This document shows, piece after piece, positions 44,590 to 47,988 of a DNA stretch of 64,000 nucleotides. Position 1 is the stretch's first letter; every line of letters starts with the position of its first letter. Made by a program: the position numbers and the translations under genes. Source of the stretch: Alphaproteobacteria bacterium (GTDB lineage Bacteria; Pseudomonadota; Alphaproteobacteria; Caulobacterales; Maricaulaceae); contig JAJRSJ010000027.1 in NCBI GenBank assembly GCA_024278855.1, positions 124,001 to 188,000 on the forward strand, written 5' to 3'. The notes under the pieces were generated by a model. The model did no database searches and was not told where the DNA came from. It saw only the letters and a program-made list of their open reading frames with translations.

Positions 44590-44700
44590 GGCGCATACCC
44601 TACAAATTCGTATTTTGCACTATATGCTCTGGCAAATTATTGGCAAGCACAGACAGCATAAGGGCAAAAAGCTTGGACAAATTTCGCCGCTCAGGCGAAC

Positions 44701-44744
44701 ATCCCTATAGCATCCCTATAGCATCCCTATAGCATCCCTATAGC
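44701..44744. repeat. 11-bp tandem repeats at the end of pdhC
   Basis: Four exact copies of ATCCCTATAGC in a row, then a partial ATCATAG. The last copy overlaps the pdhC stop (44738-44740), so the array probably grew from the gene's own final codons outward. Confidence 0.9.
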
Positions 44745-46066
44745 ATCATAGTGACGGGTTTTTCAATGAGACGCTTAAATACGGTCAGCCAATTTGCGCC
44801 GATAGCCCCGTCCACAACCCGGTGATCACAACTCAAAGTGACGCTCATAACTGTAGCAATTGCCAGTTCACCGTCCCGGACCACGGGGCGCGGAGCCCCC
44901 GCACCAACGGACATTATCATGCCTTGGGGTTGGTTAAGGATGGAGCTAAATGATTTTATCCCCATCATACCGAGGTTTGACAGGGAAAATGTGCCGCCCT
45001 GATATTCTTGAGGTTTAAGTTTTCGGTCACGGGCGCGTGTGGCCAAGTCTTTCATCTCGGTGGAGATAAGCGCCAAGCCTTTGTTCTCGGCTTCGCGGAC
45101 TATTGGCGTAATCAAACCACCATCAATGGCAACTGCAACGGCCACATCGGCGTGGTGGTGATAGGCAATTCCGTCCGGTGTATAGCTAGCATTGGCATCG
45201 GGCACTTGCTTCAGCGCAATAGCGCAGGCCCGGATCAGCATATCATTGACCGAGATTTTTATACCCTCGGGCGCTTGAGCGTTCAGTTCCTTACGCATAG
45301 CCAGCAGGGCGTCAATTTCGCAATCAATATTAAGCGGGAAGTGGGGTACATCGCGCGCACTTTCGGTTAAACGCTTGGCAATAATGCGGCGCATCCCGTC
45401 CAAAGGTTCAAGGTCATAGCTGCCAACCGGGACGCCCATTTTTTCAAGATAATCCGCCCCGCCGCCTCGTAAGGGGCCAAGCTCGGTGGTCGTGGCTGCG
45501 GGTGTTGGTGCTAATGTTTGAATGGATTGAATTTTCGCGGTCTCGATATCAACTTTGATAATCCGCCCATGTGGGCCGGAGCCAGTAATGGACGCCAAAT
45601 CCAATCCGCGTTCTTTTGCCATGCGTTTTGCTAGGGGTGAGGCTTTTATCCTACCAACCCGCTCATCCCGACGTAGGCCGGGATCCACAGCGGCAGTCGC
45701 AGGGTTCCCGGTTTCCTGGACCCCGTCTTCCGATGGGGTGAGCGGAACAGGAGGTGGTTCCGGTGCATTTGTAACGGGCGCAGCCCCGCCGACAACATAA
45801 CCATCCATCACCGAGGCATCCTCGCCGTCCTCCAACAACACCGCAATCGGTGCGTTGACTTTAACTTCGGTGCTGCCTTCAGCTACCAGAATTTTAACCA
45901 AAACCCCCTCCTCGACGGCCTCGATTTCCATAGTCGCCTTGTCGGTTTCGATCTCGGCCAACACATCACCAGAGGAAACCTCGTCCCCCTCGGCAACCAA
46001 CCATTTGGTCAATGTGCCTTCTTCCATGGTAGGGGACAAAGCAGGCATCAGGATTTCAATGGGCAT
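44738..46066 (-). CDS. pdhC: dihydrolipoamide acetyltransferase (E2 of pyruvate dehydrogenase)
   Basis: Core enzyme of the complex, 442 residues. One lipoyl domain with [15 protein letters not shown] (Lys about 43), a linker, the E1/E3-binding domain SPLAKRMAKERGLDLASITG (about 168-200), a second linker and the catalytic domain ending with CDHRVVDGAIGANWL (HxxxDG). The first linker is partly made by a palindromic element (45659-45745), giving DGVQETGNPATAAVDPGLRR. Its start overlaps the stop of the upstream 66-codon ORF (TAATG). Confidence 0.96.
   Translation of the reverse strand: MPIEILMPALSPTMEEGTLTKWLVAEGDEVSSGDVLAEIETDKATMEIEAVEEGVLVKILVAEGSTEVKVNAPIAVLLEDGEDASVMDGYVVGGAAPVTNAPEPPPVPLTPSEDGVQETGNPATAAVDPGLRRDERVGRIKASPLAKRMAKERGLDLASITGSGPHGRIIKVDIETAKIQSIQTLAPTPAATTTELGPLRGGGADYLEKMGVPVGSYDLEPLDGMRRIIAKRLTESARDVPHFPLNIDCEIDALLAMRKELNAQAPEGIKISVNDMLIRACAIALKQVPDANASYTPDGIAYHHHADVAVAVAIDGGLITPIVREAENKGLALISTEMKDLATRARDRKLKPQEYQGGTFSLSNLGMMGIKSFSSILNQPQGMIMSVGAGAPRPVVRDGELAIATVMSVTLSCDHRVVDGAIGANWLTVFKRLIEKPVTMML
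45659..45745. repeat. palindromic element inside pdhC
   Basis: An 87-bp sequence bounded by CCGCTCA and TGAGCGG. It contains two hairpins, ATCCCG-ACGTAGGC-CGGGAT and CCCC-N10-GGGG. It lies in the linker between lipoyl and peripheral-subunit-binding domains and keeps the frame. Related copies are at 46095-46217 and 47632-47657. Confidence 0.75.
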
Positions 46067-46266
46067 TACTTGCTCCCAATCATATTTAAATAAACCCGCT
46101 CATGCCTGCGCCCCGTAGGAAGTGCCCTTGGGGTGCGCATGCAGGTATCCATCGACGCAGATCCGGCGCACACCGATAGCACAGCAATAGACCCCTGCAT
46201 CCGCAGGGGTGAGCGGGATAGAGAGGGAGTGGACGACTGCGCATGTTTTAGGATTTCAATGGGCAT
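46066..46266 (-). CDS. 66-codon spacer ORF starting with a copy of the pdhC start
   Basis: The ORF begins [20 protein letters not shown], and pdhC begins MPIEILMPALSPT; 17 bases from the ATG are identical, and the preceding bases (GGAGGTAAATA versus GGGAGCAAGTA) are related. Its ATG overlaps the DUF5076 stop and its stop overlaps the pdhC ATG, both as TAATG. Most of it is a palindromic element, so a product, if made, is probably useless. It may serve to keep ribosomes moving into pdhC. I do not claim a function. Confidence 0.35.
   Translation of the reverse strand: MPIEILKHAQSSTPSLSRSPLRMQGSIAVLSVCAGSASMDTCMRTPRALPTGRRHERVYLNMIGSK
46095..46217. repeat. palindromic element between DUF5076 and pdhC
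   Basis: A 123-bp element with perfect 8-bp ends CCCGCTCA and TGAGCGGG. The left part can fold through TGCCTGC/GCAGGTA-like arms around CCCC and GGGG, the right part through CCCCTGC-ATCC-GCAGGGG. It has the same plan as the element inside pdhC. Confidence 0.75.
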
Positions 46267-46589
46267 TATTTACCTCCAACCTTGCCTTCTAACGATGGCT
46301 TAGATTTAAGTCTTTTTGTGTACCCATTTAGAATATCATTAAACATTTGTTTTTTTGTTCCGCGTGTAGGGTCCTTTTGCTGCATGCCGTTGACAGCATG
46401 CCAAGCAATGTCCGCTAAAATTGAACCCCATAACCGGGCCTCATCATTATTGTCTACGAAACCACCTATATTCATAGACGTATGGTCAATACCATCAGCC
46501 ACCCAAAATCGAATGAATTCTTGTCGGTTTGAAGCTTCTAAAACTTCCTCAGGTATTATCAATTCTCTTAAAGGCGTTTTTTCAAACAT
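46266..46589 (-). CDS. DUF5076 domain protein
   Basis: A 107-residue protein starting [20 protein letters not shown]. The pattern [10 protein letters not shown], then [17 protein letters not shown], matches DUF5076 as I know it, a family often placed inside alphaproteobacterial pdh operons. I used the ATG at 46589, which overlaps the pdhB stop by eight bases. Function unknown; the location suggests a role in complex assembly or control. Confidence 0.75.
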
Positions 46590-47988
46590 AACAAACCCCC
46601 TTAGACGCCGCCACAACATCCCCCGCATTCGGCAAACTCAATGCTTCCAGATTACCGGCATAGGGTAACGGCACGTCTTTTTGGAACACTCTTGCTGGTG
46701 GTGCATCTAGATAATCAAACGCTTGCTCCATGACCCGCGCCGCGATTTCTGCGCCTATGCCGGACTGGCCCCAGCCTTCTTCGGCGCAGACTATGCGGTT
46801 GGTTTTTTTGACCGACTTTATAATTGTGTCGCTATCGAGCGGGCGGATGGTGCGCAGGTCAATGACCTCTGCGGAAATGCCTTCGCCTGCTAGAATGTCG
46901 GCGGCTTCCAATGCGCGGCCTACCATTCTTGAGTGGGCGGTGATGGTGACATCCGAGCCAACACGGCGCACCAGACATTTTCCGATGGGTACTAGATAAT
47001 CATCCATATCCGGTACGTCCATAATCTCGCCGTACATCATTTCGTGTTCTAAAAACACGATCGGATTAGGGTCGCGGATTGCGGATTTAAGCAAGCCTTT
47101 GGCGTCCGCCGCATCATAGGGCGCGACGACTTTCAGCCCCGGTACATTGGCGTACCAACTAGAATAATCATGGCTATGTTGCGCACCAACCCGGGACGCC
47201 GCACCGTTGGGGCCGCGAAATACGATGGGGCAGCGCATTTGCCCGCCGGACATATACAAGGTCTTGGCGGCGGAATTGATGATATGGTCTATGGCCTGCA
47301 TGGCGAAATTCCAGGTCATAAACTCGACTATGGGTCTAAGCCCGCCCATGGCCGCCCCAACCCCGATACCGGCAAAGCCGTGTTCGGTAATCGGTGTATC
47401 TATCACCCGTTTGGCGCCAAATTCTTGCAACAGTTCGCGGGTGACTTTATAAGCACCCTGGTACTCGGCCACTTCCTCGCCCATGATAAACACCCGCTCG
47501 TCCCGGCGCATTTCTTCGGCCATAGCATCGCGCAGTGCATCGCGGACACTGGTTTCGACCATAGCGGTGCCGGGGGGAACGTCTATTTCTATCGGGGTAG
47601 ACTGCACAGGTGCCACAGTGTCCAAAACACTCCGCTCATCCCCGCGAATGCGGGGACCTTTCTCGTCTTGCTGTGCAGGTTCAATGGGCGCGGTCACTGC
47701 CTCGCTCGATATTACTTTGGGCACAGAAAGCACATCAACCCCCTCACCGTCCTCTAATAACTGTAAAATCACCGTGCCAACCGCAACATTTTGCGCCCCT
47801 TCGGCCACCAAAATCTTACCAACCACACCCTCGTCAATAGCTTCAACCTCCATTGTCGCCTTGTCGGTCTCGATCTCGGCCAACATATCGCCGGACTTGA
47901 CCGCATCGCCCTCCTTGACTAGCCATTTGGTCAATGTCCCCTCTTCCATGGTCGGAGACAGTGCCGGCATTTGGATATCAATACTCAT
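46582..47988 (-). CDS. pdhB: pyruvate dehydrogenase E1 component, beta subunit, with lipoyl domain
   Basis: A 468-residue subunit whose first 80 residues are a lipoyl domain ([15 protein letters not shown]), as in other Alphaproteobacteria. A linker of about 60 residues precedes the E1 beta core, which begins near [28 protein letters not shown] and includes [23 protein letters not shown] and [18 protein letters not shown]. The linker holds a half copy of the palindromic element, read as [10 protein letters not shown]. Overlaps pdhA by four bases. Confidence 0.96.
47632..47657. repeat. half palindromic element inside pdhB
   Basis: CCGCTCAT followed by the perfect hairpin CCCCGC-GAAT-GCGGGG. 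It has one CCGCTCA end and no opposite end, so it is a single-hairpin version of the elements in and before pdhC. It lies in the interdomain linker and keeps the frame. Confidence 0.7.

Follow-up and report, generated by a model that had tools for sequence, protein, structure and literature searches.

The pdh operon of a Robiginitomaculum-like alphaproteobacterium raises the question of why operons tolerate repetitive extragenic palindromic (REP) elements and what limits the sites at which these insert. The stretch of DNA analysed (the window, 64,000 nt) lies within contig C34 of a genome of 2.72 Mb in 79 contigs, whose genus includes metagenome-assembled genomes (MAGs) called Robiginitomaculum sp. 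and whose family includes Hellea. A first-pass annotation had recorded three palindromic elements in this operon, and a covariance model recovered all of them: an inverted pair of units inside pdhC, a second pair between the DUF5076 gene and pdhC, and a single unit, or half element, inside pdhB (Table 1). We consider it probable that they belong to a non-autonomous family of REP type that persists in translated regions mainly when it is read through in frame, either as a protein linker or as a small open reading frame (ORF) running from one gene to the next, here called a relay ORF. Genomes, loci and contigs are designated by G, L and C handles, the genome of the window being G000; positions of units in relatives are those among the matches listed, and the per-genome counts of the 29-nt pattern in 149 genomes are complete.

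The repeat unit is a 29-nt hairpin composed of CCGCTC, an 8-bp stem, a GNAN loop, the returning stem and a CCA tail, and its stem begins with A-T and keeps CC/GG. The motif CCGCTCAYNCC occurred five times in the window, where 0.32 occurrences were expected, and none of 100 shuffles reached that count; the wider search for copies that the annotation had proposed gave 80 matches genome-wide against 12 for a reversed-pattern control. With the covariance model, built on 42 aligned and hand-picked units, we found at least 71 units at E ≤ 1, a lower bound since 150 of 1859 first-look candidates were scored, and grouped them into 46 loci. At E ≤ 0.1 the model found five units in the window, all within 45659-47660 in the pdh operon. 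The crowding of three elements into 2 kb, which had been singled out, is thus real but not peculiar to pdh, as C30 carries three loci in 0.7 kb. Changes in the stem are compensatory: pairing was maintained in 96.1% of cells across the 42 units, with a covariation of 0.615 against 0.178 in shuffled alignments (0/500), some of these units having been retrieved by a pattern in which portions of stem and loop are fixed; structures slid from the true register gave 0.03-0.12. Inverted pairs made up 25 of the 46 loci, 23 with the tags outward and two in the reverse arrangement, and several single-unit loci resemble pairs with a decayed partner. In a search of 149 genomes the 29-nt pattern turned up in 47, our own among them, and its control in none. 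A prophage D5-type primase gene also bears a unit near its N-terminal end (L009, own C55:37751-37778). In G007, pairs with identical units and spacing stand at C9:46835, C9:51274 and C18:10599, which hints at recent amplification, though a search of that genome (74% complete) gave no Y1_Tnp gene.

Both intragenic copies had been described as lying in frame within interdomain linkers, and Pfam domains bracket each of them. The element in the E2 acetyltransferase measures exactly 87 nt, or 29 codons in frame, and lies between the lipoyl domain (residues 4-77) and the E3-binding domain (140-175); the unit in E1beta covers residues ~110-119, between the lipoyl domain (4-77) and Transket_pyr (147 onward), element residues in both proteins being computed from coordinates. 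AlphaFold predictions of E2 (six sequences) had a mean pLDDT of 36, were uninformative and were not used.

The linkers of relatives do not carry the same sequence as conserved protein, since they either lack an element or hold different ones, save for the E1beta unit, which our genome has in common with G002 (where it holds a nested 27-mer) and, in decayed form, with G006. When congeners were aligned, the pdhB and pdhC linkers proved very different. Units were found in the E2 linkers of the own genome, G002, G003, G005, G007 and G011, together with G030 from another genus, and a decayed unit in G012; the E2 linkers of G001, G010, G013, G014, G018 and G021 had no element, and the E2 genes of G008 and G009 are interrupted by contig ends. 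Other palindromes, read by hand and not established as dispersed repeats, occupy the E2 linkers of G006 and G024. In E1beta linkers, units were present in our genome, G002, G005 and G007 as well as in the decayed G006 copy, and in G001, G010 and G013 neither linker has an element. Among 80 named E2 loci, several of which are the same genomes, the model added one case, a Hellea MAG whose linker holds a pair (L201). Hairpins of 8 bp or more occurred in 11 of 60 E2 and 4 of 32 E1beta linkers that a motif search could delimit (85 loci, own included), counts in which some hairpins are not repeats and some genomes appear twice. The pdhB and pdhC linkers of G002 have an identical unit and flanks, which looks, from the sequences, like copying between two lipoyl genes. 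The pdhB linkers of G003 (L105) and G011 (L111) share sequence, while a tree of the pdh core places our genome as sister of G011, and this sharing against the tree suggests recombination.

The copy between DUF5076 and pdhC is present as first described, but it is not purely intergenic, as it lies within an open frame of 66 codons. This relay ORF starts at a duplicated pdhC start that overlaps the DUF5076 stop (TAATG) and ends with a TAA that overlaps the ATG of pdhC (again TAATG); the two start regions form a direct repeat on either side of the element. Orthologous copies of the junction pair are found in G002, G006, G009 and G011, which with our genome makes five species, and in all five an open frame of ~50-70 codons runs through the element. 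The relay ends at +1 relative to pdhC in G009, at 0 in G011 and at −3 in G006, and G002 reaches pdhC by three chained overlapping ORFs, the last ending at +11. In the insert-free G001, G003, G005, G010, G012 and G013 the gap between pdhB and pdhC is −11 to +9, and the junction of G007 is tight by sequence. The core peptide of the pdh relay is RSPLRMQGSIAGLSVCA..ASMDTCMRRYER; between G009 and G011 this core shows seven synonymous changes and one non-synonymous change, while between our genome and G006 there is no synonymous bias, so that selection on the relay peptide is only suggested. The DUF5076 gene was not seen between pdhB and pdhC in the congeners compared at this junction; in G002 and G006 other small ORFs begin at about its place. 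Elsewhere in our genome, at the junction before an E2-like gene (MGQYIFKMPDIGEGVTEAEI...) at L006 1430-1640 (own C19), a single unit stands between two stop-start copies (CATGGAGGATTA.ATGGGC).

Table 1. Positions in the window of the palindromic elements of the pdh operon, their associated repeats and ORF, and the host and neighbouring genes
Feature	Coordinates	Strand	Basis or remark
Full inverted pair inside pdhC (E2)	45659..45745	-	Covariance model, Pfam; residues 108-136 (PLTPSEDGVQETGNPATAAVDPGLRRDER)
Single unit (half element) inside pdhB (E1beta)	47632..47660	-	Covariance model, Pfam
Full inverted pair between DUF5076 and pdhC	46096..46217	-	Covariance model; inside the 66-codon relay ORF
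Relay ORF, 66 codons (MPIEIL...GSK*)	46066..46266	-	Open frame through the junction element
Nested 27-nt insert in first hairpin loop of the junction element	46111..46137	+	Absent from four orthologous copies
Start region of pdhC proper, one of two direct 39-nt repeats (79% identical)	46041..46079	-	Flanks the junction element
Upstream duplicate of that start region, at which the relay ORF now begins	46241..46279	-	39-nt repeat
pdhC, E2 acetyltransferase, element host	44738..46066	-	Pfam
pdhB, E1beta with N-terminal lipoyl domain, element host	46582..47988	-	Pfam
DUF5076 gene	46266..46592	-	Start read at the ATG overlapping the pdhB end

Relay ORFs were also found at other gene junctions. We scored same-strand gaps of 70-320 nt in our genome, G007 and G011 as bridged when an ORF of at least 30 codons covered at least 70% of the gap and ended between −6 and +10 relative to the start of the next gene; at 515 nt our own pdh junction is too long for this test. 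A relay was present in 16 of 29 unit-bearing gaps against 12 of 114 gaps without a unit (p 9.5e-7), and strict overlaps (+1 or +4) in 11/29 against 6/114 (p 2.2e-5). In gaps of 110-260 nt, strict overlaps numbered 11 of 25 with a unit and 3 of 62 without. When elements were swapped among the 29 gaps, the mean number of relays was 7.3, and none of 2000 rounds reached 16, so that in this one genus the excess holds over both controls.

At three junctions the orthologues could be compared with and without inserts. At acd-ech all 11 loci were resolved: in the insert-free G008, G001, G013 and G010 the genes overlap by 4 nt, while all seven with an insert (own, G011, G006, G002, G003, G007 and G005) have an ORF ending in ATGA, which in six of the seven starts at a GTGA on the upstream stop. 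Units were recognized in four of these inserts by script and in that of G006 by eye; in G011 (L364) and G002 (L366) the relay is formed by another palindrome family (CTCTCC...GGAGAGG). By hand reading, the sequence of that family also surrounds the 27-nt module at C10, C45 and C64 of our genome and in G006, and the family is therefore dispersed. Palindromes broadly like it also sit in the E2 linkers of L212 and L215. At leuD-leuB, 9 of 13 loci were resolved, five of them insert-free with gaps of −4, −4, −4, −1 and 0, and the four with units all have an ORF ending in ATGA. At mmsA-acd, 6 of 11 loci were resolved, with units in our genome, in G005 (ORF to +1) and in G002.

The hairpin loops of the units themselves receive inserts. 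Three orthologous pairs of filled and empty sites show an exact 27-nt insertion in different stems: our junction element against those of G002, G006, G009 and G011, the E2 element of G005 against those of G007 and G011, and the E1beta unit of G002 against our own. The full 27-nt module pattern has nine copies in 4 of the 149 genomes and its core 22 matches in 17 genomes, nine of which were read by hand as lying within unit loops in uniform orientation. Units within the loops of other units were read by hand at six own loci, again in one orientation.

By the mechanism that we propose, the palindromes with the GCTC tag would spread non-autonomously by means of some enzyme. Those in pdhB and pdhC would have become additional codons of flexible linkers, and those at junctions small relay ORFs, each opening on or close to the stop of the upstream gene and closing on the start of the next, through which ribosomes would probably still pass from gene to gene. 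In-frame translation through the elements may be maintained, since a hairpin left untranslated would break the coupling between the genes. According to Huber et al. 2023 (PMC10666635), translational coupling is almost wholly abolished by gaps of ~20 nt, a loss that would explain selection for relay frames.

Several results weigh against this proposal. Most own loci lie outside genes; called-gene interiors hold three of the 46, in pdhB, pdhC and the prophage primase. Of the five covariation measures, two (pairs changed at both positions, and additional pair types) are no higher than in shuffled alignments. Thirteen of the 29 REP gaps have no relay, and the 29 include some orthologues (leuD-leuB three times, cobS-cobT twice), which makes the tests less than fully independent. 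Gene starts came from a home-made caller, which missed DUF5076. The acd-ech and leuD-leuB junctions were picked since our genome showed a relay there, the leuD-leuB REP gaps of G007 and G011 were known before that choice, and at mmsA-acd G002 has a unit but no relay. In G067 and G084, from another genus of the family, a relay bridged 6 of the 21 gaps that hold a REP and 3 of the 31 others (p 0.13), with strict overlaps in 2/21 against 1/31, an excess in the same direction that is not significant and leaves the generality of relay ORFs unproven; ATGA was no commoner at their REP gaps (12/21 against 18/31), and none of 75 units counted in the two genomes lay inside genes.

The strongest competing explanation, which we regard as unlikely but worth serious attention, is neutral tolerance: insertion would be random, linkers and stop-start junctions would be harmless sites, and the frames would be open by chance, since units are often stop-free and ATGA supplies the stop. 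Indeed, 58 of the 138 frames of the 23 inverted pairs are open, and ATGA stands at the downstream start of 20 of the 29 REP gaps against 33 of 114 others (p 1.6e-4), which makes a relay likelier by chance; the swaps alone yield ~7 of 29, and the excess in G067 and G084 falls short of significance. Chance of this kind accounts poorly for an observed count above all 2000 swaps, and for a frame kept at acd-ech in 7/7 species though the sequence of the insert, and even its family, differs. The changes in the relay core between G009 and G011 also point away from neutrality, though hairpin stems may constrain them too and the comparison with G006 is unbiased.

A further alternative, that the element is a miniature inverted-repeat transposable element (MITE) or a REP mobilized by a REP-associated transposase (RAYT) encoded in the genome, appears distinctly improbable. 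It has terminal inverted repeats, CCGCTCA...TGAGCGG, as MITEs do, and element and Y1_Tnp co-occur above expectation over the 149 genomes (19 with both, 28 with the element only, 12 with Y1 only, 90 with neither; p 1.5e-4, uncorrected for kinship). The RAYT gene that the first-pass annotation had proposed to look for was not found: PF01797, the Y1 family, was absent from our genome (0/1; other transposase families were not searched), and likewise from G007, which has 42 pattern matches and is 74% complete. Of 12 fetched Y1 loci, only one matched the model at E < 0.01 (L181, E 0.0041). We rejected a RAYT as the mover, since none was found in the own genome and the association in relatives is not locus-linked. 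A short target-site duplication, as expected of MITEs, was likewise rejected, as one pair among 23 showed a direct repeat of 2 nt. Longer junction duplications were exceptional (pdhC, C21:24374 and the L006 junction), and as a general rule they were discarded, since a score of at least 11 was reached in 2/29 REP gaps against 2/114 others (p 0.18), which makes such duplication occasional only. The elements resemble RAYT-associated GTAG REPs and REPINs in their inverted hairpin pairs and extragenic majority, but differ in having no GTAG tag and no RAYT found in the genome.

That the elements are conserved regulatory RNA hairpins of the pdh operon, terminators or mRNA stabilizers whose coding state is incidental, is very improbable: the hairpins are strong, 11 of the 46 loci lie between convergent genes, the junction pair is orthologous in five species and a terminator scan of 45500-47800 found six sites where shuffles gave 2.7 (the pdhB unit accounting for two, one per strand), but seven congeners lack the element at the pdhB-pdhC junction, linker copies vary between species and the scan found no site in the pdhC pair or in the junction pair, for which the terminator reading was accordingly dropped.

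To place the family, we compared it with published repeats. By its features the unit is related to the CGTC REP superfamily but carries GCTC as its tag. In the accessible part of their description (Di Nocera, De Gregorio, Rocco 2013, PMC3733652), CGTC repeats are alphaproteobacterial, form inverted dimers with some copies in genes, and apparently lack a dedicated transposase, which agrees with no RAYT having been found here; copies in flexible linkers are suggested there to be possibly neutral. Our unit shares with CGTC-1 the place of the tag, the 8-bp stem beginning with A-T pairs, the 4-nt loop and the CCA tail (among the 42 units, three have longer loops, two deviant CCA tails and six failed outermost A-T pairs), as well as the inverted dimers, the alphaproteobacterial host, the want of a dedicated transposase and some in-gene copies. 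The predominance of HH dimers among CGTC repeats is matched by the 25 of 46 loci that are inverted pairs, 23 with outward tags, if outward is taken as HH. It differs in its tag, GCTC (in CCGCTC) as against the CGTC, TGTC or CCTC of the superfamily, so far as the latter is described there; all 42 aligned units carry GCTC, a feature by which they had been selected. Because of the tag we file the family as a variant of the superfamily and not as a member. Nested inserts in loops set it apart from CGTC-1 as published, and relay ORFs are undescribed in that part of the paper.

The likeness to Rickettsia palindromic elements (RPEs) that had been drawn at first reading is apt, in that RPE-4 and RPE-6 are placed in the CGTC superfamily in the same source; it rests on this description and not on sequence comparison, and RPE-1 is longer. 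Both kinds insert in frame in genes of functional proteins and are absent from orthologues, but the host is another one here and three of 46 loci lie in genes, two of those in the linkers of one enzyme complex. Relay ORFs recall the mycobacterial interspersed repetitive units (MIRUs). Supply et al. 1997 is reportedly the source for their insertion at start codons. As far as the later account at hand goes (PMC12548453), MIRUs insert at start codons and carry a small ORF coupled to the downstream gene with a spacing of −4. The resemblance, an element ORF overlapping the downstream start, is partial, as strict overlap was found in 11 of 29 REP gaps; compared by description only, MIRUs belong to a different phylum, and here a variety of REP pairs, and at acd-ech a further palindrome family too, give rise to relay ORFs. 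RPEs inside genes and MIRUs at start codons are thus already published. Among the matches listed in the literature searched, there was nothing on REP relay ORFs, palindromes in lipoyl linkers, nesting in unit loops in fixed orientation or repeated capture by linkers of the pyruvate dehydrogenase complex, and no match for REP with dihydrolipoamide and linker, nor for Robiginitomaculum with palindromic repeat. Apart from this family, a tandem array of an 11-nt repeat (CATCCCTATAG, ~4 copies) at window positions 44700-44754 overlaps the 3' end and stop of pdhC.

Repeat DNA has thus been turned into protein linkers repeatedly in one essential enzyme complex. Beyond read-through persistence, a broader rule is conceivable, which we advance tentatively and with slightly more doubt than conviction: translation would act in this genus as a filter on palindromic selfish DNA, so that REP-type elements of unrelated families could enter operons only when translated, either as an interdomain linker or as a relay ORF across the stop-start overlap; one element could then give way to another with the reading frame and the overlaps at both ends preserved, as at acd-ech. 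If translation is such a filter, a single general rule would cover both the in-gene elements of Rickettsia and the start-codon units of mycobacteria, and additional nested inserts would enter preferentially through hairpin loops, in a fixed orientation. Should relay ORFs prove real, many operon genes of 40-70 codons that escape annotation would be hidden repeats that keep their neighbours translationally coupled.

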